A stretch of DNA of 64,000 bases from Halorientalis salina (GTDB taxonomy: Archaea > Halobacteriota > Halobacteria > Halobacteriales > Haloarculaceae), in NCBI RefSeq assembly GCF_005049285.1, contig NZ_SOSC01000014.1, forward strand, positions 1-64,000. The letters are read 5' to 3'. The number at the start of each line of letters is the position of its first letter. Within the stretch, counting starts at the first letter, position 1. The translations under genes were made by a program, and so were the position numbers. This document shows, piece after piece, positions 24,014 through 51,937 of the stretch. The notes beneath the pieces are model-generated. The model worked only from the letters and a program-made list of their open reading frames with translations. It had not been told where the DNA came from and did not search any database.

Positions 24014-24455
24014 TCGTCCTGTTCTAGCGAGACGAGGTTCAGTTCAAGCCACTCACAAATTCCGATGAAGAACGGATTCGACCACTGATTAGACATGATA
24101 TACAGTAGACGCGGCACCCCCATCAAGGGCTGACATTTTCACGGAAATCGAGTTTGTTATTATATGAGTAACACACCAGTCAAGATAGCAATGCGCAACC
24201 GTTTCATCCGCTTTCACCCGAAGAGACTCTAAGAAAGGGTTTCAAAGGCGTGGAGACTACGACAAAAAAAAGGGACGAAAGAAAGCGTACTGTCACTGTA
24301 CATTGTACACGCACTGACCCAGCTGGAATCCCCTCCACAGAGACGCGGTGTGTATTCTCGATAGTCATTCGTCTGTCTGCCGATGTCGTGTTCCAACTCG
24401 GATGACTACCATCGTAGCGAGAACCCCCATATGCGGAATTATCCTAGTTACGCCC
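24014..24455. other. intergenic region before the HTH_10 gene
   Basis: This is AT-rich in the middle (around 24150-24170 and 24260-24275) with no convincing coding frame. An ATG at 24348 opens the next gene's frame, but its first 36 residues are cysteine- and arginine-rich and unlike the family. Confidence 0.4.
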
Positions 24456-25241
24456 ATGCGAGATCTGGCGAGAGACGTATCGGCGAACGGAGAAACCACC
24501 CCTTCGAGAGACACACCGGGATACCCGCCCGGCGAAGACAGCCAGAATGGAGCTGACCAGACGGAGGCCAGAGATGGATCACTCATCGGTGAACTGGCCC
24601 TGTCTCATCCCGACCTTGCGCTGTCGGGCGTTATACGTCGTGTGCCAGGTGTCACTGTTCGACCGACACGGGTGACTGCGTCTACGGGTTCCCGGTTGAT
24701 GGTGTTTACAGCACGCGGCGAAAGACTGGAGCCGTTCGAGACGGCCCTGGACGACAGTACGACGGTATCGGACCCACTGGTGATCGAGCGCACGACCAAC
24801 GGTCGTGTCTTCAGGGTCGAACTCACGGATGACACGCGCTGGATCACGCCCGACTTGGTCCAGGCCGGCGCCCGTCCACTGAATGTGGAGAGTTGTCATG
24901 GGAAATGGGAAGTTCGCGGACAGTTCCGGTCCCGGGCTGCGCTCGGCGCGTTCAGAGAGTACTGTGAGAACAACGATATCTCGTTCACATTAAAGCAGTT
25001 GTACTGGACAAGTCGTGCGGACCACCGAACTGATTTCGGGTTGAGTCCGAACCAACTGGAGACAGTTCGAGAAGCCCACCGGAGTGGCTATTTCGACGTC
25101 CCACGACAGGTGTCACAGCAGGAACTCGCCGACCACTTCGGAATCTCCTCGTCAGCCGTCTCCCAGCGACTGCGGCGGGCCACGGCCCAGATCCTCGAAG
25201 AAACGGTGTTGCCCGACGACACTGCTGGCTCGAACCAGTAG
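24456..25241 (+). CDS. Bat-type HTH_10 regulator, short form
   Basis: This 261-residue protein has an acidic N-terminal tail, a Bat-type middle domain (from about ELALSHPDLALS, residues 55-185) and a C-terminal HTH_10 (LSPNQLETVREAHRSGYFDV, then ELADHFGISSSAVSQRLRR). It lacks the PAS/GAF inputs of the proteins at 5002 and 61168. The ATG at 24456 is preferred. It closes the run of five regulators and is separated from the beta-helix gene by decayed insertion-element DNA. Confidence 0.82.
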   Translation: MRDLARDVSANGETTPSRDTPGYPPGEDSQNGADQTEARDGSLIGELALSHPDLALSGVIRRVPGVTVRPTRVTASTGSRLMVFTARGERLEPFETALDDSTTVSDPLVIERTTNGRVFRVELTDDTRWITPDLVQAGARPLNVESCHGKWEVRGQFRSRAALGAFREYCENNDISFTLKQLYWTSRADHRTDFGLSPNQLETVREAHRSGYFDVPRQVSQQELADHFGISSSAVSQRLRRATAQILEETVLPDDTAGSNQ

Positions 25242-25961: not shown

Positions 25962-27572
25962 GTGAATGACCAGAACCGAGATGGAGACGAGATGGAGGGC
26001 GCTATCGGAGCACTAATCGACAGCGGTAAGACGACAAATCGGCGCAGTTGGCTCCGTGGGCTCGCAACGACTGCATCTGCGGGTGCACTATTCGGGTTCG
26101 GCTCGACCACAGCAGCCGGTTCGACAGCCGACCGACTCGACCGGTATTTCGAGGAGTTCGGCACGGTTATCGACATTGTCGAAGCGGGTGCGGACAACAC
26201 TGGGACGGAATCAGTTGTCGACGTCATCCGGGAGCATCGCGGTGACGATACGTTGCTCGTGTTCCCACCGGGGGAGTACTACATGGACGAACAGGTCCGG
26301 TTCACTGGCTTCGAGAAGTTCGGGTTGGCCGGCAACGACGCCACGCTGGTACCCGCTGATTACCAGACCTTCGACGGCCCACAGTATCGCCTGTTCCGTC
26401 TGGGCGTCGAGTACAGCCCGGGGACTCGGCTCGTCTTCGATGGGTTCGACATCGACCAGACCGCACCTGACACCGGCATTCGCGTTATCGATGCGGTCGT
26501 CACTGACGGCCTCGAAGTCCGGGACATCTCGGTCCGAGGCCAACACGACAGCGGCACGTGGGGCCCCGGCCGATTCACGATCACGGACGCAAGCGGCACG
26601 GGCCTGGTCGAGAACTTCGAGGCACCCGACGGCGGTGCCTGGGTCGACGAGACGCCCAACGACGGGAACCTCTGGCGGGGGCCGACAGGCTTGCTCGCAA
26701 ACAGCAACAACGGAACGCTCCGGTTCGTGGACTGCGTCCTCGGAGGGTTCCCCGACAATGGACTGTACGCGTCCGGCGGATCTGGGAAGATCGTCGTCGA
26801 CGGCGGCGTGTTCAAAAACAGCAATGCCGCCTGCGTCAGGGTTGGTGGCCAGGGAAGCGTCGTGCGGAACGCGACGATCGAAGTGGACCAGAATCGACCA
26901 CAGGACAGCAGTCACCGCGGACTCAGACTGGAGAACGGGAACGACCTCCGGGCCGAGAACGTCACGATTCGGAACTACGAACCCCTCCCGAACAGTCACG
27001 GCGTCTCCGTGATGAACTCCTGTGAATCGGTGTGGATGGAGGACGTGAACGTGAAAATTTCCGGCGACGAGGTCGATCACGGAGTCGTCATCTCGCCGGA
27101 ATGTGGAGACGTCGTCCTCCTCGATTCCGGTATCGAACTCGATACACCCGGCGGGTTCGGGGTTCGCATTCACGGCGAGGAGGGTGCCGGCGACGTCATC
27201 CTGGAGCACGTCAACGTCGTCGGTGAAGCGGGTGACGAGAGTGGGGCCGCCGGAATCAGATGTGACCGAGACAACGTCCGGTTCGGCAAAGTCGCCGTCG
27301 ACCAACCAGGTGGAACCAACCGCCGGGCGGTCGTCAACACCGGCGATAACCTCAAGATCTACGATGGCTTCTACAGAGCCACCGAGCATCCGATCATCGA
27401 CCTCGGAACCGGAACCTGGGTCGAGGAGGTATACGCGAAGTCCCACGGCGACGCCGAGGCGATCTGTCTCTACGACGAGAGCGCAGACGTGTACCTCAAG
27501 AACAACAAACTCCGCGGCGGCATCGAGGATTACGGCTCTGAGGGCCTCAAAACCGTCGGCAACGAGTACTGA
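25962..27572 (+). CDS. Tat-exported right-handed beta-helix protein A
   Basis: This 536-residue protein starts at GTG 25962. Arg27-Arg28 in NRRSWLRG followed by a hydrophobic stretch and AAG indicates Tat export. From about residue 68 the chain is a series of short Gly/Asn/Val-rich turns (for example GLEVRDISVRGQHDSGTWG), the pattern of a right-handed parallel beta-helix, as in polysaccharide lyases, C5-epimerases and tailspikes. Catalytic residues cannot be assigned. It is a close paralogue of the protein at 32190, sharing LVPADY, FDGPQYRLFRLGV and HDSGTWGP. It probably acts on a polysaccharide at the cell surface. Confidence 0.8.
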   Translation: MNDQNRDGDEMEGAIGALIDSGKTTNRRSWLRGLATTASAGALFGFGSTTAAGSTADRLDRYFEEFGTVIDIVEAGADNTGTESVVDVIREHRGDDTLLVFPPGEYYMDEQVRFTGFEKFGLAGNDATLVPADYQTFDGPQYRLFRLGVEYSPGTRLVFDGFDIDQTAPDTGIRVIDAVVTDGLEVRDISVRGQHDSGTWGPGRFTITDASGTGLVENFEAPDGGAWVDETPNDGNLWRGPTGLLANSNNGTLRFVDCVLGGFPDNGLYASGGSGKIVVDGGVFKNSNAACVRVGGQGSVVRNATIEVDQNRPQDSSHRGLRLENGNDLRAENVTIRNYEPLPNSHGVSVMNSCESVWMEDVNVKISGDEVDHGVVISPECGDVVLLDSGIELDTPGGFGVRIHGEEGAGDVILEHVNVVGEAGDESGAAGIRCDRDNVRFGKVAVDQPGGTNRRAVVNTGDNLKIYDGFYRATEHPIIDLGTGTWVEEVYAKSHGDAEAICLYDESADVYLKNNKLRGGIEDYGSEGLKTVGNEY

Positions 27573-27650
27573 CGCAGTAGTCCACGGCACCGGCACCGCC
27601 CGTGACTACTGGCGGTCGCATCCGCGAACAACGGTCCGGCATCAGCGACC

Positions 27651-28967
27651 TCAAGCCGGTGAAGAACCGTTTTCGCCCTGTTTGCGTAGCTCCCAGAGTT
27701 CATCGAGCGTGATGACTTCGATAGCGTCACCCGTCTCGTCGATATGTTGGAGGAGCTGTTCGTACTCTCCAGCCGTCATCGTATTATTCAGGCTGAAGTC
27801 ATGGAAGTTGAGGATGCCGCATTCCTTGAACTCCGCCACATTGTCGACGACTTCCTTCGCAGTCGAGAGGTCGTTCCCGATTGTTCGGGGCAACACTAGC
27901 GGATCAAAACTGTATAGGCCGGTTGTGTTTACGCTCCCCGACGCGTTCATGCCCCCGATGTAGTGATATTTCGAGGCTTCCGAGAGCACAGTCGCGTTGT
28001 AGTTATTGCCGGGATACACGATCGCATTGGCTCCATCGAACCCTTGATTGCGGAGCCATTGCTTGTTCTGTGCCATCGTCTCTCTGATCTCTTCGCCGGA
28101 CTCTTCGGTGTAGTTGGTCGCTAGACTCCCGTGAGTGCAGATGTCGTCGCCAGCTTCCTCGCGCTCCTTGAGCTGTCCAACCGACATGAAATTCCCACCG
28201 CCCACGAGCCGTGGTGCTGTCGCCATCGTCACGTTGAAACCGAACTCGTCGTTGATCGGCGCACCGTCTTCGTAGTAGCTCCGGCGACTGTCGTCCCAGC
28301 TCAGAACGATGTACCCTTTATCAGGCTTCGGATGGGTACGCATGTCGTCGAGGCTGATTGTTGCATCAGTGGTGGTCGCGTTGAGCATGTGCACCTGGAC
28401 CCGCTCGATCTGGGTGATATCGAACGCGTCACCGCTGGTCGAGAACGTCCCAGGTGCGGTGCGGAACCACGCCACGTCGTCGCCATCCTGCGAGATCCTT
28501 CGCAGCGACCGGACCATTTGATTACCGAACGGGTCGACGAGTCGGACGTTGACGGCGATTTTGGACGGGGTCGTCGTCCGAACCGCCATCGATAGCTCGG
28601 TGTCCGAGAAATCCCTGCTATCGGCTGCCCGTTCGATGAGGGTGTTACTCCCATTCTCGCCGAGAAGTTTCGCACTCTGGGACCCGGCAAACGATGTGTC
28701 GTTCGATTCCACGTCCCCAGTAAGTGCCGTCCACTTCGAGAGGTCCTCGAAGTCGTCAAACGACGTTCCCGGGTGGGCATACCGCTCGCGACTTTTGTAA
28801 GTGGTTTCGAGTGTGTCCTCATTTACGTCCGGTGTCTGTCCATCCCCCGGCGATGTCGAGTTGGTCGTTGTATCGCTGGACCCCATGGAACAGCCCGCAA
28901 GGCCGAGTGCTGCCGCTGCGGCCGTTCCCGCGAGGAATTGGCGTCGGTTCGATGCAGTTTGTCTCAT
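27651..28967 (-). CDS. Tat lipoprotein polysaccharide deacetylase-like protein
   Basis: This 438-residue protein has a twin-arginine motif (NRRQFLAG, Arg8-Arg9) and a lipobox ending in Cys26 (LGLAGC), so it is exported folded and lipid-anchored outside. An acidic linker and a jelly-roll-like domain (about 65-205, FDDFEDLSKWTALTGD) resembling a carbohydrate-binding module precede a NodB-type domain (about 215-425) with LSWDDS, HGSLATN and a VYPGN motif. The metal-binding Asp and His are present, with loosened canonical spacing. It would remove acetyl groups from a surface polysaccharide. The ATG at 28967 is chosen because it sets the Tat signal. It is convergent with beta-helix A. Confidence 0.85.
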   Translation of the reverse strand: MRQTASNRRQFLAGTAAAAALGLAGCSMGSSDTTTNSTSPGDGQTPDVNEDTLETTYKSRERYAHPGTSFDDFEDLSKWTALTGDVESNDTSFAGSQSAKLLGENGSNTLIERAADSRDFSDTELSMAVRTTTPSKIAVNVRLVDPFGNQMVRSLRRISQDGDDVAWFRTAPGTFSTSGDAFDITQIERVQVHMLNATTTDATISLDDMRTHPKPDKGYIVLSWDDSRRSYYEDGAPINDEFGFNVTMATAPRLVGGGNFMSVGQLKEREEAGDDICTHGSLATNYTEESGEEIRETMAQNKQWLRNQGFDGANAIVYPGNNYNATVLSEASKYHYIGGMNASGSVNTTGLYSFDPLVLPRTIGNDLSTAKEVVDNVAEFKECGILNFHDFSLNNTMTAGEYEQLLQHIDETGDAIEVITLDELWELRKQGENGSSPA

Positions 28968-29170
28968 ACCTATGCCATCATACCCGATGGCTATCACTAT
29001 AGAGACGCTAAGATATTTGAATATCAGTGACGATTTTGTTTATGTGATTCATAGAGGGACTCCCAACCAATCGTGTCGGTCGGGGGAACGTTGGCTGTCC
29101 GAGTTCCGAACACCTGTTTGACTGTGGTCTGGTACAAACGAGCGGAACCACCTGCAGGTGTCCCTATCAG

Positions 29171-29181
29171 GTCTATAATAA
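29171..29181 (+). promoter_or_regulatory. TATA-like box of the sulfatase-like gene
   Basis: TCTATAATAAG lies about 34 nt upstream of the ATG at 29210. The spacing suits a nearly leaderless transcript that could run through the flippase gene. Confidence 0.5.
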
Positions 29182-29209
29182 GGACGATCCAGGGCGACGT
29201 CGTTCGTAT

Positions 29210-30145
29210 ATGGACCGACCCCGATCCCCACTAACCGAGCAGATTCGCCGCGGACTCCGGGAGCCTCACCTCGTACTGCGCCAGGTCAACGAGTGGTTCT
29301 ACGACCTCCATTCGGAGTACGCCGACGACCGTGATCGACTCGAGTTCTTCGAGGAGGACTGGGACAACCTCCTGTTGCTCGATGCCTGTCGGTACGATAC
29401 GTTCGCGTCCGTCCACGACCTGCCGGGGCAACTGGACGCCAGACATACCGATTCGAGCTCGACGATCGAGTTCTTGAAGCGGTACGTCGATGAGCAGGAC
29501 CTGACCGACACCGTGTACGTCACTGCTAATCCACAACACTACCGCAAACAGGAGCGCGACTACATCTCGGCCGATTTCCACGACGTAATCGAAGTCTGGC
29601 AGGAAGACGGGTGGGACGATGCGTTCAGGACGGTCCGGCCGGAAACAGTCGCCGATGCCGCCGAACGGGCCGCGGACCGCTACCCGGACAAGCGACTCCT
29701 CGTCCACTTTCTGCAACCGCACTACCCCTACATCGGACCGACCGGACAGGACGCGTTCGACAACGACTCGCTCGACTTCTTCAACAAGGTTCTGAACGGC
29801 GAAATCGAGGTCGAGGATAGAACCCTCCGAAAGGCGTATCAGGAGAACCTTGAGGCAGCACTACCGAGCATCAGCCGGTTACTGGGGTCACTCTCCGGTC
29901 GGACTGTGGTCAGTGCCGATCACGGCGAGATGTTCGGCGAACGAGCCTTTCCGATACCGGTACGGGAGTACGGGCACCCGACAGGAATCCACACGCCAGA
30001 ACTGACTGAAGTCCCGTGGCTCGTCTCCGACAACGGTCCCCGGCGGTCGATCACCGCGGGCGATTCCGAGAGCGATGCGGACGACCGCGACGATGTCGCA
30101 TCGGAGGTCGTCGAGGAACGCCTCAGAGACCTGGGGTATGCCTAA
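29210..30145 (+). CDS. sulfatase-like (alkaline phosphatase superfamily) protein
   Basis: This 311-residue protein of the alkaline phosphatase/sulfatase fold has LLLLDACRYDTF near residue 55 (first metal Asp) and SADHGEMFG near residue 241 (metal Asp and His), with HPTGIHTPELTEVPW after it. The sulfatase CxPxR nucleophile motif is absent, so a phosphatase or phosphotransferase role on a lipid-linked glycan is as likely as sulfatase. There is no signal peptide. Genes of this type recur in haloarchaeal glycosylation clusters, and a flippase gene follows. Confidence 0.75.
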   Translation: MDRPRSPLTEQIRRGLREPHLVLRQVNEWFYDLHSEYADDRDRLEFFEEDWDNLLLLDACRYDTFASVHDLPGQLDARHTDSSSTIEFLKRYVDEQDLTDTVYVTANPQHYRKQERDYISADFHDVIEVWQEDGWDDAFRTVRPETVADAAERAADRYPDKRLLVHFLQPHYPYIGPTGQDAFDNDSLDFFNKVLNGEIEVEDRTLRKAYQENLEAALPSISRLLGSLSGRTVVSADHGEMFGERAFPIPVREYGHPTGIHTPELTEVPWLVSDNGPRRSITAGDSESDADDRDDVASEVVEERLRDLGYA

Positions 30146-30369
30146 GCCCGTGCGGAGTCCCTTCGTCCATCGAGTATCTGGTGCTGGTCGCTCCGGACCA
30201 CCGAGTCACACGAAAAGCCCCATCCACGGGTCACTCCTCGTTGTTCAGTCAGACATCTCCAGCGGCACGGTTGGCAACCGACTGGCCGAAAGCGAGCGGG
30301 ACCGAATTAGACCGGGAGTCTGTCGACCGGGACGAGTTGGCAGGACAGTACCGTGAACCCCCGGAGAAC

Positions 30370-31995
30370 ATGCAACGAAACATAGTCAGCGGCGTCCTGT
30401 CGGTCGTCTCCGGCAAAGTGGTGACCATGGTTATCGGGATCATGACCACGCCGATCCTGTATCGGTTGCTGGGGCCCGGACAGTTCGGGGAGTACACGAC
30501 AGTGCTGTCTGTCCACGCGATTTTGATGATCTTCGTGAGTTCCGGCATCACCGACGGCGTCCGAAAGTTCGTCGCCGAGGACCGCGCCGGGACACCAGGC
30601 TGGAAGCCCAACGTCGTGGGGTTTTATTTTCGGATTGCGGTAGCGCTGGCGCTACTGGGGGTAGTAGGCTACATTGCAGCCATCCAACTGGGTCTCGTCG
30701 ACTGGCTGTTCGGCCCAAAATTCGAGACGTATTTCAGTCTCATGATCGTCATGGTCGTCGCCGCACAGGTGTGGGCGTACGCGCGCAAGACGCTCATGGG
30801 ATTCGGCCTGGAGCGGTATTCGGAACCCCTGAAGGTACTCTATCGGCTGGTCTTCGCCACCAGCGCGCTCGCACTCGTGTACGTCGGGTACGGCGTGATC
30901 GGTGCCCTCGCCGGCCAGGTACTCGGGACGCTGCTGGTCGGCATCATTGGGCTCGTCCTGGTTACTCGACAGATACCAGTCCGAGCACTCTTCCAATCAG
31001 CACCGGCGGCGTTCCCCCGGAAGCAGATGGTCACGTACAACGTCATGGCAGTGGCCCTCTCACTGTTCCTGCTGTCGCTGTATCACGTCGACATCATCAT
31101 GCTCCAGACGCTGGCCGGGAGCACGCAGGTCGGGAACTACAAGGCAGCCCTCGTGCTGGCGGAGTTCCTCTGGTTCGTGCCGATCACACTCCAGACGGTC
31201 TACGTTCACTCGACCTCGGAGCTGTGGTCGCAGGGCCGCTTCGACCGCATCGCTGACCTCGCCGCACGGACGACACGCTATACACTCCTCCTGACGGCCC
31301 TGATGGCACTTGGCCTCGGGTCGTTGGCAAACATTGTCGTCCCGATCTACTGGGGGGACGCGGCGCTCCCAGCGATCTCGCCGCTGTTGTTACTCCTACC
31401 GGGGGCGATAGGCTTTGCAACGGTTCGACCGACGCTCGCCATCCAGCAGGGGCACGGCCAGCTTCGATATCCGGTCCTCGCCACCGCGGCCGCAGCACTA
31501 CTCAATCTCGGCTGTAATTTCCTCTTGATACCACGATACGGAATGAGCGGCGCAGCCGTCGCAACCAGCATCGGATACGGGTCGATGTTGTTCTTTCACG
31601 TCTGGAGCGCCCGGAAACTCGGATTCGACCCGATCGGCGACGCACGACTCCTTCGCATCGGTGCCACGGTCGCAATCGCTGCAGTCCCGATCGTCCTGCT
31701 CTCACGCCTCCTGCCAGGATCGATCGCACCGCTCCTCATCGTCCCCCCGGTCGGACTGGTCGTCTACCTCACCGCTGCGTTCCTGACCGGGGCGCTCACC
31801 GTTCAGGAATGTCTGGACCTGCTCGCCGCATTCCCGGACCCAATCGGGAGTTTCGTCGATCGATTCGATACTCGCCGTCGGACACGAAGCATGGCGACAC
31901 TGTTGCCCGAACGGAACCAGCTCTGGCTGCTGGTGATCGGCCTGTTGCTATTTGCGGCAGGGACCGCTGTCGCCGCCTTCGATACTATGCTATAG
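30370..31995 (+). CDS. oligosaccharide/polysaccharide flippase (MOP superfamily)
   Basis: This 541-residue membrane protein has about 14 hydrophobic segments and the opening helix pattern of Wzx/AglR-type flippases (RNIVSGVLSVVSGKVVTM, then LYRLLGPGQFGEYTTVLS). The flippase would move a lipid-linked glycan to the outer face. The ATG at 30370 gives a normal family length; the frame is open upstream to 30016 but those residues are arginine-rich and non-membrane. The C-terminal ~60 residues form an extra cytoplasmic loop plus one helix. It lies between deacetylase/sulfatase-like genes and beta-helix B. Confidence 0.88.
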   Translation: MQRNIVSGVLSVVSGKVVTMVIGIMTTPILYRLLGPGQFGEYTTVLSVHAILMIFVSSGITDGVRKFVAEDRAGTPGWKPNVVGFYFRIAVALALLGVVGYIAAIQLGLVDWLFGPKFETYFSLMIVMVVAAQVWAYARKTLMGFGLERYSEPLKVLYRLVFATSALALVYVGYGVIGALAGQVLGTLLVGIIGLVLVTRQIPVRALFQSAPAAFPRKQMVTYNVMAVALSLFLLSLYHVDIIMLQTLAGSTQVGNYKAALVLAEFLWFVPITLQTVYVHSTSELWSQGRFDRIADLAARTTRYTLLLTALMALGLGSLANIVVPIYWGDAALPAISPLLLLLPGAIGFATVRPTLAIQQGHGQLRYPVLATAAAALLNLGCNFLLIPRYGMSGAAVATSIGYGSMLFFHVWSARKLGFDPIGDARLLRIGATVAIAAVPIVLLSRLLPGSIAPLLIVPPVGLVVYLTAAFLTGALTVQECLDLLAAFPDPIGSFVDRFDTRRRTRSMATLLPERNQLWLLVIGLLLFAAGTAVAAFDTML

Positions 31996-32189
31996 GGTCT
32001 CGACGACCCCATGGGCCGGTCGAAAACACCACGAGTGGCAGATCCGAGCCATGTCCTGACACGACAATACCCTCATTTCCCACAGAGGGACAGGAGACGT
32101 TTTCGCCGGACTATCACTGGTCTACAGATATCGGTATACCGACCTTATCTGTGCAATAAGTAAGCACAAGTGGTCACTCCGATCGATCA

Positions 32190-33704
32190 GTGACGATAGA
32201 TGAATCCGGCCCACTGGGAGGGAGTCGGCGTTCGTTCCTGCAAACAGCAGCAACAGGCATCTTCGGGTCGAGTCTTCTCGGCTCGGCCGCGGCGACAGGT
32301 ATCGAAGACCAGTATCGAACCGTCGTCGACGTAACTGACGCCGGTGCCGACAACACGGGCACGCAATCAGTGAGTTCGGATGTCCAGAGCCTGATCGGTG
32401 ACGATACGTTGCTGAAATTTCCCTCGGGTCGATACGTCATGGACGAGCAGGTTCGACTCACGGGATTCGAGAACGTCGGCCTCGTGGGAGCTGACGCGAC
32501 GCTGGTTCCTGCGGATTACGACGAGTTCGACGGTCCCCAGTACCGCCTGTTTCGACTGGGCGTTTCGTACAGTCCCGGCAAGGACATCCGGGTGGAGAAT
32601 TTCACCGTCGACCAGCGAGGGGCGAACACTGGCATCCGCGCGTTCGAGATAACTGCGAGCGATGGCCTCCTCGTCAGGGACGTCACTATCGTCGGCCGCC
32701 ACGACAGCGGTACCTGGGGTCCGGCGTTGTTCAGGATCACCGACTCCGGTGGGAGTGGTCGTGTCGAGCGGTTCCGAGCGGCCGACGGCGGTGCCTGGGA
32801 AACCGAGACACCCGGCAGTCTCTGGCGTGGTCCGACTGGCATTCTCGCCGCCCAGATCGAGGGAACGCTTCGATTCAACGACTGTGTCATCGACGACTTC
32901 CCGGACAACGGCCTCTATGCCACCGGGTCGGGCACTGTCGAGGTGACGGGTGGAGCGTTTCACAACAGCGGGACCGTGAACGTTCGCATGGACACCGACA
33001 GCGGACACATCACCGGAAGCGAGTTCGTCGTCGACGATCCGTCGTGGTATCACAGGGCACAGGTTCCGATTCGGTTCCAGGACGGGAGCTGGTTCGACGT
33101 GCAGAACGTCAGTATCGAACTGACACAGCCAAACGGGGACGCGATCCAGTTCAAATCGGGGGCTGGCGGTGGGGCTATCAGTGACTCCACCATCGAAATC
33201 CGCAACGAACCCGCAACCGGTGTGCTCGTCGACCCCAGTGCCGGTCCAACATATCTCGATGGGGTCGACATCGACATCGACGCCAGTGCGAACGCGATCC
33301 GGATCGAGGGTGACGACGACGGCGAGGTGATCGTTCAGGACGGGCGCATCTCCGGCGGTGCATCCGGTCAGGTACTCCGCCACGCCATCCGCTGTGAACG
33401 CGATCACTGTGAGTTCCGTGGGATAACCATGGACCAGTGGGGCGGCTCCGAACGGTCCGGACTGGCGCTCACCGGTCGTGATTACATGGTCTACCAGTGT
33501 GAGTTCCGGACCACGGACCGTCCGCTGACCATCGCCGGTGACGACGTCTGGGTCGAGGACTGTTACTGCAACTCCTACAGCGCCCAGGAGTCCGTGCTTC
33601 TCGGAAGCACTGCGAACTCGATCCGCCTCAAGAACAATGGCTTCCCCGACGGAATCGAGGATAACGGGGCCAGCGAGGTCCTCGCGACCGGAACGTCCTA
33701 CTGA
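32190..33704 (+). CDS. Tat-exported right-handed beta-helix protein B
   Basis: This 504-residue paralogue of the protein at 25962 starts at GTG. Arg13-Arg14 in SRRSFLQ followed by a hydrophobic stretch and AAATG gives a Tat signal. The first ~200 mature residues track beta-helix A closely (GADNTGTQSV, MDEQVRLTGFENVGLVG, FDGPQYRLFRLGVSYSPG), while the middle and C-terminal turns diverge. The repetitive Val/Ile-x-Asp turns indicate a parallel beta-helix. Divergence in the likely substrate groove suggests different specificity on the same polymer. A glycosyltransferase gene follows after 70 nt. Confidence 0.8.
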   Translation: MTIDESGPLGGSRRSFLQTAATGIFGSSLLGSAAATGIEDQYRTVVDVTDAGADNTGTQSVSSDVQSLIGDDTLLKFPSGRYVMDEQVRLTGFENVGLVGADATLVPADYDEFDGPQYRLFRLGVSYSPGKDIRVENFTVDQRGANTGIRAFEITASDGLLVRDVTIVGRHDSGTWGPALFRITDSGGSGRVERFRAADGGAWETETPGSLWRGPTGILAAQIEGTLRFNDCVIDDFPDNGLYATGSGTVEVTGGAFHNSGTVNVRMDTDSGHITGSEFVVDDPSWYHRAQVPIRFQDGSWFDVQNVSIELTQPNGDAIQFKSGAGGGAISDSTIEIRNEPATGVLVDPSAGPTYLDGVDIDIDASANAIRIEGDDDGEVIVQDGRISGGASGQVLRHAIRCERDHCEFRGITMDQWGGSERSGLALTGRDYMVYQCEFRTTDRPLTIAGDDVWVEDCYCNSYSAQESVLLGSTANSIRLKNNGFPDGIEDNGASEVLATGTSY

Positions 33705-33774: not shown

Positions 33775-34698
33775 ATGACCAGGGTCAGCGTCGTCATTCC
33801 GACGTACGATCGCGCAGCGGAACTCCCCCGTGCAATCGAGAGCGTCCTGAACCAGACGCACCAGGAGCTCGAACTCCTCGTCGTCGACGACGGGTCGACG
33901 GACGGAACCCAGTCGCTACTCGACTCGATTTCGGATTCGCGGCTGCGTGTGATTACCCATGAGACAAATCGAGGAGCGAACGTCGCACGAAACACCGGGA
34001 TCGACCACGCTGAGGGCGAGTGTCTCGCCTTCCTCGACTCCGACGACGAGTGGGAGCGAACGAAACTCGACCGCCAACTGACGCGATACGACAGTGGACC
34101 CGAGGACTGTGTTGCGGTGTACTGTGATTTCGAGATGGAAGTCGGCGGTCTCAGCGGCCGCGTCCTCTCAGCCGTCGCCGGGGTGTTGGCCATGGCCGAC
34201 GGGGACCGGCCGAAAGCGGGGCGTGACATGCTCGTGGGTGAAATACTGGCCGACCATCTCCACTCGGGGGCCGGGTCGACACTCCTCGTGGAAACGGCCG
34301 TTGCGCGCGAAATCGGCGGTTTCGACGAAGAACTCGACTGGTTTCAGGACCCCGATTTCCTCTTGCGTGTCGTCCAGGAAGGGTTCGTCGGGTACGTCGA
34401 CGAGCCACTCGTGTCACGACACGAGACCGGGTCACCGCCAGCGGCAGTCGCTGCACGCGCCGACGAACAGTTCCTCGCCAAGCACGCGTCCCTCGTCGAG
34501 GCTGCCGAAGAAAACGGATACCGAGTTCGGGCAGCACACGCACTGCTCATGGCGAAACTCTATCTCGCGGAGGGGAAGTTCGAGACGGCAGCGGACCATC
34601 TGGCCGCGGCTCACGTCCCACCCCGGCACGTCCCGGGTGTTCTCTGGAGCGGGGCCACCGGCATCCGGAACAGTGCCGTATCCGCACGCCCGGACTGA
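33775..34698 (+). CDS. family 2 glycosyltransferase
   Basis: This 307-residue GT-A fold enzyme opens with VSVVIPTYDRAAELPRAIES and has VVDDGSTDGT at about 35-44 and the DxD-type FLDSDDEW at about 88-95. GGFDEELDWFQDPDFLLRV near residue 185 matches the acceptor/ED region. It would add one sugar to a lipid carrier or growing glycan. The C-terminal ~70 residues are helical and have no membrane span. The ATG at 33775 is 30 nt after a GATAATAAT element at 33741-33749. Donor and acceptor are unknown. Confidence 0.9.
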   Translation: MTRVSVVIPTYDRAAELPRAIESVLNQTHQELELLVVDDGSTDGTQSLLDSISDSRLRVITHETNRGANVARNTGIDHAEGECLAFLDSDDEWERTKLDRQLTRYDSGPEDCVAVYCDFEMEVGGLSGRVLSAVAGVLAMADGDRPKAGRDMLVGEILADHLHSGAGSTLLVETAVAREIGGFDEELDWFQDPDFLLRVVQEGFVGYVDEPLVSRHETGSPPAAVAARADEQFLAKHASLVEAAEENGYRVRAAHALLMAKLYLAEGKFETAADHLAAAHVPPRHVPGVLWSGATGIRNSAVSARPD

Positions 34699-34800: not shown

Positions 34801-35811
34801 ATGTTTCCGTTCGGTCGTTGGTATTCTGATTTGACGGTCGTTGTTTGTCTTACAGCGGTGGCAGTGGTGATGGTGATAAGCGACGTCCCAGGGTGGCTCC
34901 GAATAGGGTTCGTCGTCCCGTTGGTGACAGTGTTGCCGGGCTACGCGTTCATCGGGCTTCTCTACCCGAGAACAGAGCGGGCGTCCCCCCGAGTGTTCGA
35001 CGAGACCGAGGGCGGGCTATCCGAGTCGATCCCCACGAAAGAGGGCATCGACACCGTCGAGCGAATCGTGCTCGCTGTCCTCTCTAGCCTCATACTCGTG
35101 CCTGCTGTCGTCCTCGGGACGAACTTCACGCCCTGGGGAATCACCGTCGAGCCGATTCTCGCTGGACTCGCCGGGCTTACCGGAGTGCTCGTTCTCGGCA
35201 CAGCAGTCCGGCGGCTCCGAGTCCCGTCGTCCCAGCGGTATGCCCCCAGTTTCTCGTTTCTGTCGACGCTCCTGTACACCCGAAGCACCCCCACGTTCGG
35301 CTCGACTGGGTCTAGCCCGTATCCGTTCAATATCGCACTCGTGATTGCCATCGTGCTGTTTGCCTCCAGTCTGGGGTATGCAGCAGTCAACCCACCGACT
35401 GGCGACGGATTCACCGAGCTGTATATCGAGACGGGGGACGTGACCGGCGAGACGGAATCGATGTATCCCTCTCAGTTCGCCGCCGGCGAGACACGCGCGC
35501 TCCCCGTCACGGTGGCTAACCGAGAGAACGAGGAGACGGCCTACGGGCTTGTCGTGCTCCAGCAGCGCGTCAACCGGACGGATACCGACGAACGTGTGGT
35601 CGAAACGGACCGCATCACACAACAGCGCTTTACACTCGATCAGGGCGAGAACTGGTCACAGCCGATGAGCGTGTCCCCGTCGATGAGTGGTTCCGACCTC
35701 CGCCTCGTACTCTTGCTGTATCGCGGCGACATACCCACCGATCCGTCGATCGACACCGCCTATCGCGTCCTGCGCCTGCCCATAGACGTCGATGGCGGAG
35801 GCGGGAGTTGA
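34801..35811 (+). CDS. DUF1616 membrane protein
   Basis: This 336-residue protein has N-terminal helices (about 8-30, 35-60), a pair at about 82-105 and 115-137, one more at about 175-200, then an outside domain (about 205-336). The motif VPLVTVLPGYAFIGLLYP is diagnostic of DUF1616, a family found almost exclusively beside archaeal surface-glycan genes. The function is undetermined. It starts at ATG 34801, 6 nt before the stop-to-start spacing of the following hydrolase gene is repeated, so 34801-36390 is probably one transcript. Confidence 0.85.
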   Translation: MFPFGRWYSDLTVVVCLTAVAVVMVISDVPGWLRIGFVVPLVTVLPGYAFIGLLYPRTERASPRVFDETEGGLSESIPTKEGIDTVERIVLAVLSSLILVPAVVLGTNFTPWGITVEPILAGLAGLTGVLVLGTAVRRLRVPSSQRYAPSFSFLSTLLYTRSTPTFGSTGSSPYPFNIALVIAIVLFASSLGYAAVNPPTGDGFTELYIETGDVTGETESMYPSQFAAGETRALPVTVANRENEETAYGLVVLQQRVNRTDTDERVVETDRITQQRFTLDQGENWSQPMSVSPSMSGSDLRLVLLLYRGDIPTDPSIDTAYRVLRLPIDVDGGGGS

Positions 35812-35817
35812 TCGGTC

Positions 35818-36390
35818 GTGTGGCCATGGGAACACCTGGCGATCGGGTACCTGCTCTACTCGGGATACGTCCATTTCACCAACAGTGAGTCGCCGACCAC
35901 AGGGCCAGCGCTACTCGTGGTCCTGGGGACTCAGTTTCCGGACCTCGTCGACAAGACGCTTGCCTGGACGTTCACGATTTTCCCGAGTGGCGTCTCGGTG
36001 GCCCATTCGGTGTTTACCGCCGCTGGGCTGTCGGCGTGTGTCGTGCTCCTCGCGCGGCGACTCGAGCACCGACAACTCGGCATCGCGTTCGCCATTGGCT
36101 ACCTTTCACATATTCCGGCCGATATGGTGTATCCAGTCTTCCTGGGGGGTCGACTCAACCTCGGAGCGTTCTTCTGGCCGCTCGTCACGGCTGCAGGGCC
36201 GGCCCGCGGTGGCTTCCTTGCGAACTTCGCCTACTATGCCGTCCGCTTTCTCGCGTTCCTCGGCACGCCACGCGGCATTCTCTTTCTGGTGTTGGAGATC
36301 GCGTTGCTCGGGACGACGGCGGTGGTCTGGATTCTCGACGGCCACCCTGGATTCGATGTTCCGTCGCGTTTTAATTCCGAAATAACGTAA
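35818..36390 (+). CDS. membrane-bound metal-dependent hydrolase (DUF457/YdjM type)
   Basis: This 190-residue protein, GTG start at 35818, lies 6 nt after the DUF1616 stop. It has about four hydrophobic segments, and WPWEHLAIGYLLYSG at the front gives the HE metal ligand pattern. GTQFPDLVDK and AIGYLSHIPADMVYP supply further conserved Asp and His residues. YdjM-like proteins are membrane-embedded predicted hydrolases with unknown substrate. Coupling to DUF1616 is typical of haloarchaeal glycan loci. Confidence 0.82.
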   Translation: MWPWEHLAIGYLLYSGYVHFTNSESPTTGPALLVVLGTQFPDLVDKTLAWTFTIFPSGVSVAHSVFTAAGLSACVVLLARRLEHRQLGIAFAIGYLSHIPADMVYPVFLGGRLNLGAFFWPLVTAAGPARGGFLANFAYYAVRFLAFLGTPRGILFLVLEIALLGTTAVVWILDGHPGFDVPSRFNSEIT

Positions 36391-36577: not shown

Positions 36578-37312
36578 ATGCAGGTACCGTTCACTCGTCG
36601 TCGCGTGCTGGGCATCGGCGGAACCGTCCTCGCTGGCGGGGCGTCGGGATGTCTCTCGACAGGGGACGTGGCTGGAACGGAATCGTCCACGACACGCTCT
36701 GCATCCCGTGAAACTGTCGATGAGCCACTTCCGGAACCGAGCGATGTGTCCTTCGATTCCTCGACAGGCGCAACTGTGGAGGCAACACTGTACGGGCGTG
36801 GCTCCTGTGGCGTTGTCCTCGTCCCCCAGATCAACCTCGACCGTGAGAGCTGGCATCCGCAGGCGGAGCGCCTCGCTTCAGAGGGCCTGGTCGCACTGCC
36901 AATCGACGAGGGCAGCGACCGGGTGCCAGCCGTTCTCGCTGCGGTCGAGTACCTGCGAACCGAACACAGCATCTCCCACGTGGTACTGATGGGTGCCAGT
37001 ACCGGTGGGGAGGCCGCCGTCGTCGCTGCGGCAACGAAACCGGATCGTGTCGATGGAGTAATTACACTCTCGGCTGCCGGTGGTGTCGTGCGAGCGAATC
37101 GGCTCACCGGAGCGCAACTGTTCGTCGTCAGCAGGGGAGACGAACAGGAGTTCGTCGATATGGCTTGCGAACTCAACGACAGAGCACCGGAACCGAAGCA
37201 CCTCGAAATATACGACGGTGGGGCACATGGGCAACGACTCTTCGAGAGCCCACACCGCCAGGACCTTTGGACGAATGTACTCACAACTATTACAAATGTT
37301 TGTCAGAACTGA
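36578..37312 (+). CDS. Tat lipoprotein alpha/beta hydrolase
   Basis: This 244-residue exported protein has TRRRVLG at 6-12 as a Tat motif and the lipobox Cys25 (GASGC). The mature part is an alpha/beta hydrolase with nucleophile Ser141 in GASTGG, acid candidate Asp188 (SRGDEQ) and His217 (GGAHGQ). Dienelactone-hydrolase or peptidase-like families have this layout. In this locus it could be an esterase removing acyl groups from the exported polysaccharide. The ATG at 36578 is chosen because it sets the signal; the longer frame from 36398 is not signal-like. Confidence 0.85.
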   Translation: MQVPFTRRRVLGIGGTVLAGGASGCLSTGDVAGTESSTTRSASRETVDEPLPEPSDVSFDSSTGATVEATLYGRGSCGVVLVPQINLDRESWHPQAERLASEGLVALPIDEGSDRVPAVLAAVEYLRTEHSISHVVLMGASTGGEAAVVAAATKPDRVDGVITLSAAGGVVRANRLTGAQLFVVSRGDEQEFVDMACELNDRAPEPKHLEIYDGGAHGQRLFESPHRQDLWTNVLTTITNVCQN

Positions 37313-38280: not shown

Positions 38281-38281
38281 A
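38075..38281 (+). CDS. possible small protein overlapping the glmS start
   Basis: This 68-codon frame rich in Ser, Thr and Met begins at ATG 38075 and has a TGA that overlaps the glmS ATG by one base (TGATG), the arrangement expected for translational coupling. Composition is less acidic than neighbours and no family was recognised. It could be a leader peptide controlling glmS or a chance frame. Confidence 0.3.
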   Translation: MTMQVHSSDETDSATGMAPVTDSTSRPTVGSSSVHPTMGAVESHRLSNASAQTTGIGHTREIRQKVSN

Positions 38282-40095
38282 TGTGTGGAATCATTGCCCA
38301 CCTCGCTACCGATGATGCGGTAAACGGATTGATCGAGGGCCTGGACCGACTCGAATACCGCGGATACGACTCCGCTGGTATCGCGGTCAGCGACGGGTCG
38401 GATCTCTCCGTCTACAAACGCGCAGGCGAGATCTCGGACCTAAAAAGTGACCTCTCGGCCGCGCCACTGACGGGAAAGATCGGCATCGGCCACACTCGCT
38501 GGAGTACGCACGGCCCCCCAACGGACGAGAACGCTCATCCACACACCGGCGACAGGGAGCGCGTCGCAGTCGTCCACAATGGTGTCGTCGAGAACCATCG
38601 TCGCCTCCGCAAGCAACTTCGCGCGGACGGCCACGAGTTCACCAGTGAGACGGACACGGAAGTCATTCCGCACCTCATCGAGGAGTATCTCGAAGCGGGA
38701 GACAGTCCGGAGATGGCCTTCCGTCGAACTGTCGACGATCTGGAAGGCGGGAACGCGGTTGCCGCCGTCTTCGAAGACGAAGCGCGTATCTTCGCTTCCC
38801 GGGATGGCTCACCACTCGTCGTGGGTATCGACGACGACGAGTACTACCTGGCGAGCGACGTGCCCGCGTTTCTCGAACACACTAGCGACGTCATCTATCT
38901 CGAAGACGGGGATGTCGTCATCGTCGAACCGGACCAGCTTCGGATCCTCGATCCCGACGGATCCTCCGTCAAGCGAAGTCACGAGACTGTCGATTGGGAC
39001 CCCGAGGAGGCTGGCAAAGGGGCGTTCAACCACTATATGCTCAAGGAGATCAACGAGCAGCCCACCTCGCTCACGAACACGGTTCGTGGCCGCATCGATG
39101 CCGAGCAGGAAATCGTATTCGAGGAACTCGATACGGGTATTTTCGACGGGATCGAAGAGGTCCATTTCGTCGGGTGTGGAACGTCACATCACGCATCGCT
39201 GTACAGTGCCCGATTGATGAGCAGGGCTGGTATCTGCGCCAGAGCGTTTCGGGCCAGCGAGTACGTCGAAACGTCGGGTCCGATCTCCGAGAAGACACTC
39301 GTAATCGCGGTCACTCAGAGCGGAGAGACGGCGGATACGCTCGCGGCGTTGCGAGAAGCAACAAATCGGGGAGCACCGACGCTCGCGGTGACGAACGTGA
39401 TGGAATCGACCGCTGCACGTGAAGCCGACGAAACGGTATTTATTCGCGCCGGTCCGGAAATCGGTGTCGCAGCGACGAAGACGTTCACCTCCCAGGCGGT
39501 CACCCTGGCACTGCTTTCGCAAAAAATCGCCGGTGAACTGCCCCAGGCCACCCTTCGCGAGGACCTTCCGGAACTGCTGGAGGCACTCGCACGCATTCCG
39601 GAGGATGTCCAGCAGGTCATCGACCAGAATCAGGCGGCCGAACTCGCACGGGACCTTCTCACATACGATGCGTACTTCTTCATCGGCAGGGGGTCCAGTC
39701 TACCGGTCGCACTCGAAGGGGCACTGAAGTTCAAGGAGATCACCTACGAGCATGCCGAGGGGTTCGCCTCCGGACAGCTCAAACATGGCCCGCTGGCGCT
39801 GGTGACGCCGAACACGCCGGTCTTCTCGCTGTTCACCGGAGAGGAAATCGAGAAGACGATTACGAACGCCAAGGAGGCCCAGACACGCGGAGCCGACATT
39901 ATCGGCATCGGTTCGGCAGACAGCCCCGGACAGAGCGTCTCCGACGCTTATCTCGAAATTCCGGCGACCCATCCAGTCTGTGAGAGCCTGTTGGCGAACG
40001 TCCAGCTCCAGCTCATCTCCTACCACACCGCCGACCTGCTCGGGCGTTCGATCGACAAACCCCGCAACCTCGCCAAGAGCGTGACTGTCGGATGA
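38281..40095 (+). CDS. glmS: glutamine--fructose-6-phosphate aminotransferase
   Basis: GlmS makes glucosamine-6-phosphate from fructose-6-phosphate and glutamine, the entry step to UDP-GlcNAc. The 604-residue protein has Cys2 as N-terminal nucleophile (MCGIIAHLA), the glutaminase domain (1-215), and two SIS domains with GCGTSHHASLYSA and TQSGETADTL. The C-terminus IDKPRNLAKSVTVG is the family signature. Placement between glycan genes suggests a dedicated hexosamine supply. The asparagine-synthase-like gene follows by 10 nt and is probably in the same operon. Confidence 0.96.
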   Translation: MCGIIAHLATDDAVNGLIEGLDRLEYRGYDSAGIAVSDGSDLSVYKRAGEISDLKSDLSAAPLTGKIGIGHTRWSTHGPPTDENAHPHTGDRERVAVVHNGVVENHRRLRKQLRADGHEFTSETDTEVIPHLIEEYLEAGDSPEMAFRRTVDDLEGGNAVAAVFEDEARIFASRDGSPLVVGIDDDEYYLASDVPAFLEHTSDVIYLEDGDVVIVEPDQLRILDPDGSSVKRSHETVDWDPEEAGKGAFNHYMLKEINEQPTSLTNTVRGRIDAEQEIVFEELDTGIFDGIEEVHFVGCGTSHHASLYSARLMSRAGICARAFRASEYVETSGPISEKTLVIAVTQSGETADTLAALREATNRGAPTLAVTNVMESTAAREADETVFIRAGPEIGVAATKTFTSQAVTLALLSQKIAGELPQATLREDLPELLEALARIPEDVQQVIDQNQAAELARDLLTYDAYFFIGRGSSLPVALEGALKFKEITYEHAEGFASGQLKHGPLALVTPNTPVFSLFTGEEIEKTITNAKEAQTRGADIIGIGSADSPGQSVSDAYLEIPATHPVCESLLANVQLQLISYHTADLLGRSIDKPRNLAKSVTVG

Positions 40096-40105
40096 TTTCG
40101 TCGCG

Positions 40106-41836
40106 ATGACCGAAACGGAGTCGGCCCTCCACATGCACAAGGAACTGTTCGGTGTCTTCGGTGATCGGTCGGCGTTCGAGCGGGAACGGTCACCAGAGAC
40201 GTTCGACCGTGTCGTCGAGGGGCCGACGATTACCGCCGGTGTTCGGAATTCGGAACTCGGCATCCCCGGCCGTACCACCGTGTTCCAGACCCCACGAGGC
40301 GTGTGTGTTCTCTGGGGAGAGGTGTATCCACGGCAGGTCGATGGGATGGGTCTCGCACAGTGGGTCCTCCAGGAGTACGCCAAACGCGGTCCCGACGTAC
40401 TGAACGAACTCAACGGCTCGTACCTGGCCATTCTGGACCACGAACGTCGAGACGGGCTCATCGCAACGGACTGCGTCAGAAGTCGTGAGTGTTACTTCTC
40501 CGATGCAACGGGGACTCGCCTGTTCGGCACCGACCCGTCCACCGTCGGGAAGACCGTTCCCGACCCGACACTCGCTGAAGAACCGCTCCAGGAGTTACTC
40601 CACTTCGGCGTCGTGCTGGACGACCGGACAGCGATCGCGGAGCTCCAGCGGATTCCCTTCGACAGCGGACTGACGGCGGCCGAGACCAGACGGTTCGACC
40701 GGTTCGTCTACGAGCCACGCGAGTTCGATTACGCGAGCGAACTGGCCGAGCGCCTGGAGCGAGCACTCTCCCGACGGCGTGGACTTCCAGGCCGGAACGG
40801 CCTGCTCCTGAGTGGCGGGTACGATTCCCGGGTTGCCCTGGCAGGAATCCCCGACATCGAGGCCGCGTTTACAGTCGCCAAACCAGGGAGTTCAGAGCTC
40901 GCCGCGGCCCGTCGTATCGCCTCGCAGTACGGCGCATCGCACACACAGTTGCACGTGGACGATCGCTACCTGAACACCGACGCCGAAACCGTCCGCTACG
41001 GACACGGAATCATGGAATCGCTCCATATCCACCACGCTGGATACACCGACCAGATGGACGTCGAGACGATATTCCACGGTGGGCTCGCCGATTCGCTCCT
41101 GCGAGGCCATTTCCTTCCCATCAGTGGCATCCAGCTGTTCGACCACGAGTGTCCGCCATACAGCCTCGATACCGACCCTGATGTCGGCACCTTCCTGACC
41201 GAGATATTCGGCTATCTCCCGGCGTCGGAGTCGCTGGCCCGGACTGGCGTCTCGACAGACGAGTCGGGAACGGAGTTCCTTCAACGCCGTGTGGCCGAGG
41301 TATCCGCGAAGTACGACGCTCGGTTCGACCGGAAGGCCAACGAGATGGCCCTGCTCGGGATCCAGAACCAGCCGAGCCGTTCGTTCCGGTATCATCTCGG
41401 CGATAACTTCATCGAATCCTGTTTCGTCCTCGACAGGGAACTGATCGAGTGGCACCTCGCAACGCCGCCGGAACACCGGAACACGAAGACGTTCATCCGC
41501 GCAATGCGGAAACTCGACGGCGATATCCTCCGGCACCGTCCCCCTGACCGAGCAACCGACTCCTACACCCTCAATCAGATCGGGAACTTCCTCCAGCGCG
41601 TGATCCCACTGGTGTCCGGCTACGAGGGGCCCTGGCCCGACCGCAAGGAACTCTACGAGGACCGGAATCTCGACGAGGAGTTGTTTGGAGACCATCCCGC
41701 GATTCAGGAACTCCCGTGGCGGCTCAAACTCAGAATCAACGACATCAATACGTGGCTGGACGCCACCCTCGGCCAGTCGCCAGTCGATTCATCGGCACTC
41801 GTTCGGTCGAATCCAGTCCAACAGCCGACATCCTGA
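40106..41836 (+). CDS. asparagine-synthase-like protein lacking the Cys nucleophile
   Basis: This is a 576-residue protein. The C-terminal part carries the PP-loop ATP-pyrophosphatase motif SGGYDS at 236-241 and the rest of an asparagine-synthase-type domain (about 210-470, with FHGGLADSLLRG). The N-terminal ~200 residues look like the glutaminase fold (WGEVYP, LNGSYLAILDHERRDGLIATD), but no Cys follows the initiator Met, so glutamine hydrolysis is not expected. It may use free ammonia or activate a carboxylate for amide formation on a glycan, since amidated uronic acids exist in haloarchaeal glycans. It is tightly linked to glmS. Confidence 0.82.
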   Translation: MTETESALHMHKELFGVFGDRSAFERERSPETFDRVVEGPTITAGVRNSELGIPGRTTVFQTPRGVCVLWGEVYPRQVDGMGLAQWVLQEYAKRGPDVLNELNGSYLAILDHERRDGLIATDCVRSRECYFSDATGTRLFGTDPSTVGKTVPDPTLAEEPLQELLHFGVVLDDRTAIAELQRIPFDSGLTAAETRRFDRFVYEPREFDYASELAERLERALSRRRGLPGRNGLLLSGGYDSRVALAGIPDIEAAFTVAKPGSSELAAARRIASQYGASHTQLHVDDRYLNTDAETVRYGHGIMESLHIHHAGYTDQMDVETIFHGGLADSLLRGHFLPISGIQLFDHECPPYSLDTDPDVGTFLTEIFGYLPASESLARTGVSTDESGTEFLQRRVAEVSAKYDARFDRKANEMALLGIQNQPSRSFRYHLGDNFIESCFVLDRELIEWHLATPPEHRNTKTFIRAMRKLDGDILRHRPPDRATDSYTLNQIGNFLQRVIPLVSGYEGPWPDRKELYEDRNLDEELFGDHPAIQELPWRLKLRINDINTWLDATLGQSPVDSSALVRSNPVQQPTS

Positions 41837-48898: not shown

Positions 48899-49827
48899 GC
48901 CGGTACCTCCCGTCGGTCGAGCGCGGACGCATAGAGCGTCTCGAGTTCGCGGCCGAATCGCTCGGGATGCAGGGTTTCGATTGTGTCCCGGCCGTTCGGT
49001 CGCCACTCGTTCGAGAGGATTACTTCGAGCGCACCAGCCAACTGGAGGTCCGACTCACAGACCGCACACTGTTCGATACCGTCGAGTGTCTCCCGGACGA
49101 AGCCGACATCTGTCGAGACGATGGGGACGTTACACGCGGCGGCTTCGCGGACGATCATCGGGCCGCTCTCGCGCTTCGAGGTCACGAGGACGGCATCGCT
49201 CGCGTTCAGATAATAGGGCATCTCCGCGTAAGCTTTGCCACTCACTGTTCGGAGTTCGGCATCGATATTGGCTGCTTCGACGATACCTGCGGCCCGTTCG
49301 AAGTCCTTCTCCGGGCGGCTGGGGTCGTACGGGAACAGGATGTCGGCCGAGTCAGCCTCCCAGCCGACATATGCCTTTGCCGTCGCCCGCTCGATTGGCT
49401 CGAACACGTCAGTGTCGACGGGGAACGGAATGTGTGTGTACGGGGAGTCCAGGAACTCACCCATCCGCTCGCTGGGGAGTATCACTCGGTCGGAGAGTCG
49501 CGCACTGGCTCTGCTCAATTTCGTCTGCCAGCCCCGCTGACTCATGAGTTCACTCCCCCAGAAAGTGGTCACGACCGGACGGGTGGGCTGGGCGAGCGCG
49601 AACGGGGCCGTCAGTCCGTGATTCGCGTGGACCAGGTCGTAGGAATCCAGGCCGTGTTCGAGCACCTCGGGATAGTACTGGAGGTACTCAGTCAGTGTTC
49701 GCGGGTCGTCGGCTGTGTACTCCCCAGGGACCTCAAGAACAGTACACTCGATTCCACGAGACCGGAGGGCCGCGATCTGTTCTTCGAAAAACGAGCGCCG
49801 ATACGTTGTGAGTTGTAGCGTTCGCAT
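48895..49827 (-). CDS. family 4 glycosyltransferase
   Basis: This 310-residue GT-B enzyme has the N-terminal half ending with YDLVHANHGLTAPFAL and VVTTFWGSELM. The nucleotide-binding half includes LFPYDPSRPEKDFERA and the donor-site motif TSKRESGPMIVREAAACNVPIV (start about residue 226) with the conserved E-x7-E arrangement. It is short for GT4 (about 350-400 usual) but complete. It starts 4 nt after the DUF354 stop and overlaps the membrane gene by 4 nt, so it is co-translated. Confidence 0.85.
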   Translation of the reverse strand: MRTLQLTTYRRSFFEEQIAALRSRGIECTVLEVPGEYTADDPRTLTEYLQYYPEVLEHGLDSYDLVHANHGLTAPFALAQPTRPVVTTFWGSELMSQRGWQTKLSRASARLSDRVILPSERMGEFLDSPYTHIPFPVDTDVFEPIERATAKAYVGWEADSADILFPYDPSRPEKDFERAAGIVEAANIDAELRTVSGKAYAEMPYYLNASDAVLVTSKRESGPMIVREAAACNVPIVSTDVGFVRETLDGIEQCAVCESDLQLAGALEVILSNEWRPNGRDTIETLHPERFGRELETLYASALDRREVPA

Positions 49828-49831
49828 TCGT

Positions 49832-51936: not shown

Positions 51937-51937
51937 C

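Follow-up and report, generated by a model that had tools for sequence, protein, structure and literature searches.

A recurrent pair of Tat-exported beta-helix proteins linked to flippase and glycosyltransferase genes in haloarchaea

Why should two related, exported beta-helix proteins flank a polysaccharide flippase in a haloarchaeal genome, and on what do they act? The question is raised by the first 64,000 nucleotides of contig NZ_SOSC01000014.1 of Halorientalis salina, the whole stretch analysed here and referred to as the window. It contains two intact open reading frames for paralogous proteins, named A and B, that carry signals for twin-arginine translocation (Tat):

25962..27572, + strand: paralogue A, Tat-exported right-handed beta-helix protein of 536 residues (BLASTP, tree, Pfam, AlphaFold2 model, Tat motif)
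32190..33704, + strand: paralogue B, Tat-exported right-handed beta-helix protein of 504 residues (BLASTP, tree, AlphaFold2 model, Tat motif)

A and B are members of one family with one fold, descend from an ancient paired duplication and are linked to flippase and glycosyltransferase genes. The reading we favour, and regard as rather probable, is that the locus serves the synthesis and export of an acidic surface polysaccharide, which A and B process outside the cell.

An earlier note on this DNA had described A and B as Tat-exported beta-helix paralogues sharing long blocks early in the sequence and diverging later, and both statements hold. BLASTP aligned the proteins over their full length with 41% identity (511 aligned columns, E 1e-125). 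Over residues 51-300 the identity per block of 50 residues was 48-78%, and beyond residue 300 it fell to 19-35%, homology being still traceable as far as the last C-terminal residue. The two are the sole family copies in the H. salina genome. Both contain the RR Tat motif, and 91 of 94 sampled family members carry one. The note had also taken Tat export as a sign of cofactor-bound or fast-folding enzymes. We dropped this interpretation because halophilic archaea secrete proteins predominantly through Tat (PMC2910488), so that its use is uninformative on either property.

AlphaFold2 models of A and B, built with 42 haloarchaeal sequences, are right-handed beta-helices with a mean predicted local distance difference test (pLDDT) score of 95.1 and 95.2, respectively, and a predicted template-modelling (TM) score of 0.93 each. 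Together with this fold, family profile matches place the proteins in the pectate-lyase-like right-handed beta-helix superfamily: PF13229 was found in 36 and PF12708 in 27 of 42 family members (E<=0.1; best 2.4e-10, PF12708), while the Pfam beta-helix matches of A and B taken singly were borderline. Foldseek neighbours of both models in the PDB comprised PfbA, AlgE4/AlgE6, the RbmB lyase and PL6 lyases as well as GH28, GH87 and GH55 hydrolases, DFA-IIIase/inulin fructotransferases and phage tailspikes; AlgG was among those of model A. Most of these neighbours act on polysaccharides, and their TM-scores, mostly 0.2-0.4, mark them as generic beta-helix relatives. A BFVD fold search returned many phage tailspikes (TM 0.2-0.6), taken as the same generic likeness. 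In PHROGs only scattered weak tail-fibre matches appeared, none of them to a window protein; phage records held no relative of B, and viral contigs gave a single weak partial match.

As modelled, the beta-helix fold of A and B is secure, but it identifies no activity. DPHD-type catalytic motifs characterise mannuronan C5-epimerases such as AlgG and AlgE; the invariant residues of the A/B family include no such motif, a PDB sequence-profile search with A and B gave no meaningful match, and TM-scores to these enzymes are about 0.3. Assignment to glycoside hydrolase family 28 fails as well, PF00295 reaching an E of 0.014, under the cutoff, in 1 of 42 members. With polysaccharide lyase families (e.g. 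PL6, RbmB) there are many invariant arginines to compare, yet no sequence match. Thus, of the earlier comparison with epimerases and lyases the fold stands and the activity does not, since epimerases, lyases, hydrolases and tailspikes match about equally weakly.

The pair is old, and in the samples searched its family matches fall in one order. A family match at 1e-20 was present in 218 of 392 sampled genomes of the order, and a sample of 247 genomes from across the phylum gave 21 matches at 1e-25, all of them within it. Close copies of the pair are lacking in the seven other genomes sampled from the genus, of which the best (G098) carries moderately similar ones on two contigs (best E 2.2e-111). 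In a maximum-likelihood tree of 94 members, A belongs to a clade of 37 rows (support 98) and B to one of 20 rows (support 99), each including sequences from Haloarculaceae, Halostella (Natronoarchaeaceae) and Natrialbaceae. This topology indicates a duplication that predates the split of the three families or spread between them by whole-locus transfer. A recent local duplication as the origin of the pair was ruled out, the two clades being common to different families. One lineage (f4) has a different second copy, outside clade B.

The earlier note had proposed to look for the paired arrangement in other haloarchaeal genomes. Among the top-scoring matches listed, 51 genomes carry at least two copies, which lie within 15 kb of each other in 22; the chance expectation of close copies is 0.0225 per genome (nominal P 5e-23, shared ancestry ignored). 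The arrangement is not accidental. It recurs and is common, but it is not obligatory, because in many Natrialbaceae B is lost from the glycan locus or lies apart from it. Taken as a whole, the note's interpretation is supported in part.

The genes accompanying the pair in the window are as follows:

24348..25241, + strand: HTH_10/BAT-type transcriptional regulator, immediately upstream of A (PF04967, 1.8e-17)
27651..28997, - strand: NodB-fold Tat lipoprotein (the locus deacetylase) with an N-terminal carbohydrate-binding-like region (PF01522, 2.3e-9, above cutoff)
29210..30145, + strand: alkaline-phosphatase-superfamily-like ('sulfatase-like') protein (weak family profile matches)
30370..31995, + strand: Wzx/MATE-type polysaccharide flippase (PF01943, 1.5e-19; start likely ATG 30370)
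33775..34698, + strand: GT2 glycosyltransferase (PF00535, 3.5e-36; listed reading frame over-extended at its 5' end, start likely 33775)
34801..35811, + strand: DUF1616 membrane protein (PF07760, 1.4e-78; in 25 of 62 sampled loci)
35818..36390, + strand: YdjM-type membrane metal-dependent hydrolase (PF04307, 1e-9; in 20 of 62 sampled loci)
36578..37312, + strand: Tat lipoprotein, alpha/beta hydrolase (signal RRRVLG...GGASGC; start likely 36578)
38281..40095, + strand: GlmS, amino-sugar precursor supply (TIGR01135, 4.7e-212; also in the Haloarcula sp. JP-L23 region)
40106..41836, + strand: asparagine-synthase-like protein (PF00733, 4.5e-6; recurs in 26 of 62 sampled loci)
46907..53290, - strand: second block, with a DUF2206-like protein with multiple transmembrane segments, GT4, DUF354, GT2 and a nucleotide-sugar dehydrogenase

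The trio that the note had placed between A and B, i.e. a NodB-domain Tat lipoprotein, a sulfatase-like protein and a flippase, is thus present, as are the exported esterase-like lipoprotein, an alpha/beta hydrolase with a Tat lipobox, and the GT2 glycosyltransferase downstream. The sampled loci were chosen from strong matches, so that the fractions describe close members of the family and do not extend to all distant homologues. In these loci the genes are arranged as regulator, A, [deacetylase, sulfatase-like], flippase, [GT2, deacetylase], B, GT2, [DUF1616, YdjM or deacetylase, asparagine-synthase-like]. The HTH_10 regulator directly precedes A in 32 of 35 A loci, and in 32 of 35 the flippase lies at most six genes downstream of A; in 13 of 20 B loci the next gene after B is a GT2. 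Regulator, flippase, deacetylase and glycosyltransferase genes all recur around A. Placement relative to glycan genes, which the note had named as a point on which its view could fail, is hence non-random, and the recurrent association with flippase and glycosyltransferase genes supports a locus dedicated to surface polysaccharide. The conserved order suggests a cluster for making an acidic surface polysaccharide. Two sampled loci, L066:9835-13423 (Halomicroarcula rubra) and L067:9149-12755 (Haloarcula pellucida), have two additional beta-helix genes, more distantly related, in the gap from A to the sulfatase-like gene, where they replace or accompany the deacetylase.

The window also allows an estimate of the nature of the polymer. 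The flippase has about 13 hydrophobic segments, which, with its PF01943 match, agrees with the 12-14 segments of a Wzx-type protein, the type that the note had named. Genes of the second block adjoin the A/B genes in three loci (L070-L072, part of the block). In Haloarcula sp. JP-L23, GlmS and second-block genes are contiguous with the A/B locus, which is on a plasmid, and the alpha/beta hydrolase lipoprotein occupies a matching position. The named families nearest to the nucleotide-sugar dehydrogenase are UDP-N-acetylhexosamine dehydrogenases, below equivalog cutoffs, and its nearest PDB chain is a hypothetical UDP-ManNAcA dehydrogenase. It is reasonable to infer a polymer that contains N-acetylhexosaminuronate and is acidic. 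No Wzy polymerase of a Wzx/Wzy pathway was recognised among the scanned window genes, the DUF2206-like protein (46907-48898) being only a candidate polymerase. Elsewhere in the window, a phage-integrase-like gene (12954-14207; PF13102, 1.6e-6) lies upstream of the cluster. A sugar-transfer-associated ATP-grasp protein (58065-59276; PF14397, 1e-34) recurs in five sampled loci.

For two of the enclosed proteins a tailoring role is weakened. The NodB/CE4-type lipoprotein passes PF01522 and keeps the Asp pair D234 and D235, the first zinc histidine H288 and the C-terminal H398. The window copy lacks the second zinc histidine of the HxxxH motif, which most of its cluster relatives also lack or have in a displaced position. 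The protein is therefore a NodB-type Tat lipoprotein as described, but with one zinc ligand degenerate its activity is uncertain and deacetylation cannot be assumed. In Natrialbaceae clusters (L043, L044, L046, L078-L080, L082-L084 and similar), a second NodB-fold paralogue lacks the Asp-Asp and His motifs (LLFDGTLESH / ARPRTG) and is probably a binding protein. The sulfatase-like protein has no Pfam match by itself, and its family profile matches PglZ (0.006) and Sulfatase (0.008; 2 of 7 members) weakly. The alignment of seven members shows the invariants DACRYD, SSST, QPHYP and ADHGE and lacks the C/S-x-P-x-R formylglycine motif of type I sulfatases. PDB searches gave no credible relative, the G-protein matches being spurious. 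Because neither a signal peptide nor a membrane segment was found, it is unlikely to be an exterior tailoring enzyme; it is probably a cytoplasmic enzyme of the alkaline phosphatase superfamily. A second gene of this superfamily (59360-60970; PF01663, 4.1e-31), without membrane segments, has relatives that adjoin the regulator in Natrialbaceae clusters.

How might A and B work? In the proposed scheme, the glycosyltransferases would build lipid-linked units, probably with N-acetylhexosaminuronic acids, and the flippase would turn them outward. A and B, once secreted by Tat, would act outside the cell on the polymer, either during its synthesis or once it is complete. They would work as a pair of beta-helix enzymes that cleave, trim or epimerise the polysaccharide, with a common groove but different subsite specificities. 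Invariant in both clades (A numbering) are R113, R143, R146, D165, R174, H195, Y269, R293, R322, R436 and R454, and the arginine set plus H195, Y269 and D165 is unchanged across 89 core members. Such an arginine-rich set fits an anionic substrate. Judged from DSSP strings only, the invariant residues may lie about one coil apart. R319, invariant only in A, and H398 (B numbering), invariant only in B, would fit two specificities. The age of the pair and these clade-specific residues are what the note's proposal of two paralogues of different specificity predicts. We infer that A and B are enzymes, that the polymer of the locus is their substrate and that they differ in specificity.

A and B thus probably trim or modify the surface polymer. 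As to the chemistry, the basic conserved set with its histidine and tyrosine leans towards a lyase or epimerase, which is our tentative choice. D165 and D196 leave a hydrolase as an option; one resembling WceF, discussed below, is a possible though somewhat doubtful outcome. Non-catalytic binding is unlikely. In the most specific version, A and B would be two archaeal polysaccharide C5-epimerases or lyases that differ in specificity, and their target would be an N-acetylhexosaminuronate polymer already exported and perhaps N-deacetylated; this strikes us as quite improbable. If true, it would amount to a matrix-maturation pathway reminiscent of that of alginate or heparan, of which we know no description in archaea.

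Several observations weigh against processing of the locus polymer by A and B. The top PDB match of both models, PfbA, is listed as a surface adhesin, and beta-helices often serve as binding platforms and can be adhesins. A and B match no characterised enzyme in sequence, and with TM-scores as low as those of their models no catalytic site is transferable. Several Natrialbaceae clusters keep A, the flippase, the deacetylase and a glycosyltransferase without B, and in some Natrialbaceae B is relocated beside TrkA/DHH, ABC ATPase and molybdopterin oxidoreductase genes with no evident glycan role, so that the role of B may exceed the glycan locus.

The alternative that best survives is that A and B are surface adhesins or matrix-binding scaffolds without catalytic activity, which would anchor the polysaccharide after its export or cross-link it. 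The PfbA match speaks for it, and WceF aggregates with its own polymer (PMC7949094). However, the other fold neighbours are mostly enzymes, and residues as strictly conserved as the arginines, H195, Y269 and D165 in the 89 core members go beyond the needs of a scaffold; we consider this explanation unlikely. More doubtful still is a locus serving N-glycosylation of the S-layer or pilins, with A and B tailoring protein-linked glycans instead of free polysaccharide. The glycosyltransferase GT2b weakly resembles AglJ and polyprenyl-phosphate sugar transferases, and some plasmid-borne glycan genes of Haloferax gibbonsii LR2-5 are listed under N-glycosylation (PMC7921747). On the other hand, the scanned genes include no clear AglB oligosaccharyltransferase, and AepG of Haloarcula hispanica, a glycosyltransferase clustered with aglB, serves acidic exopolysaccharide and not N-glycosylation (PMC9943897). 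Catabolic depolymerases breaking down foreign polysaccharides for nutrition share the fold (GH28, PL6, GH87) but are very improbable here, as the conserved neighbours are flippase, glycosyltransferases, DUF1616, GlmS and nucleotide-sugar dehydrogenase, and the annotated recurrent neighbour families include neither a sugar importer nor another glycoside hydrolase.

Processing of an exported acidic polysaccharide by A and B would matter, since few genes for haloarchaeal surface polysaccharides are characterised and, in the searchable literature, none for an enzyme that tailors the polymer. An old pair of exported beta-helix proteins in a conserved locus provides defined candidates for archaeal remodelling of the cell's own matrix. 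A search of mostly open-access literature on haloarchaeal polysaccharide loci turned up no published account of the paired locus, which is not proof of absence. It did turn up work on the exopolysaccharide of Haloarcula hispanica (PMC5467301, PMC9943897). Its locus HAH_1661-1667 combines a polysaccharide-biosynthesis protein with an adjacent arylsulfatase-family gene; the accessible part of the account mentions no beta-helix pair (PMC5467301).

Relatives of individual components are known from other systems. The lipoprotein 27651-28997 matches the turret protein THP (gp31) of Haloferax tailed virus 1 (HFTV1; 8QPG) over its full length (2.5e-18 singly, 1.7e-43 as a profile), including the binding module and the NodB domain, and the authors propose that THP binds and modifies host glycan (PMC12494034). 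In contrast to the window copy, this viral capsid protein keeps the HxxxH zinc motif. A related deacetylase on a haloarchaeal virus capsid suggests that this or a similar glycan is a barrier that viruses must pass. The HFTV1 host, H. gibbonsii LR2-5, has a related beta-helix/DUF1616/flippase locus on plasmid pHGLR2. AlgG, AlgE4 and AlgE6 share the beta-helix fold, and AlgG is a periplasmic component of alginate biosynthesis; they differ in that neither DPHD nor a sequence match is found in A or B (Foldseek E 7e-6 to 4e-4, TM about 0.3, model A). RbmB of Vibrio cholerae (9OZL/9OZD), a high-ranking PDB match of both models, is a beta-helix lyase acting on the producer's own matrix polysaccharide, although its identity to A and B is about 8-13% and its TM-score 0.17-0.42. 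The closest working analogue is WceF of Pantoea stewartii. It is a bacterial, trimeric hydrolase present in one copy per cluster, and no sequence relationship to A or B is shown. Nevertheless, it is a Tat-exported right-handed beta-helix encoded inside an exopolysaccharide biosynthesis cluster, a stewartan glycosidase whose loss lengthens the polymer (PMC7949094).

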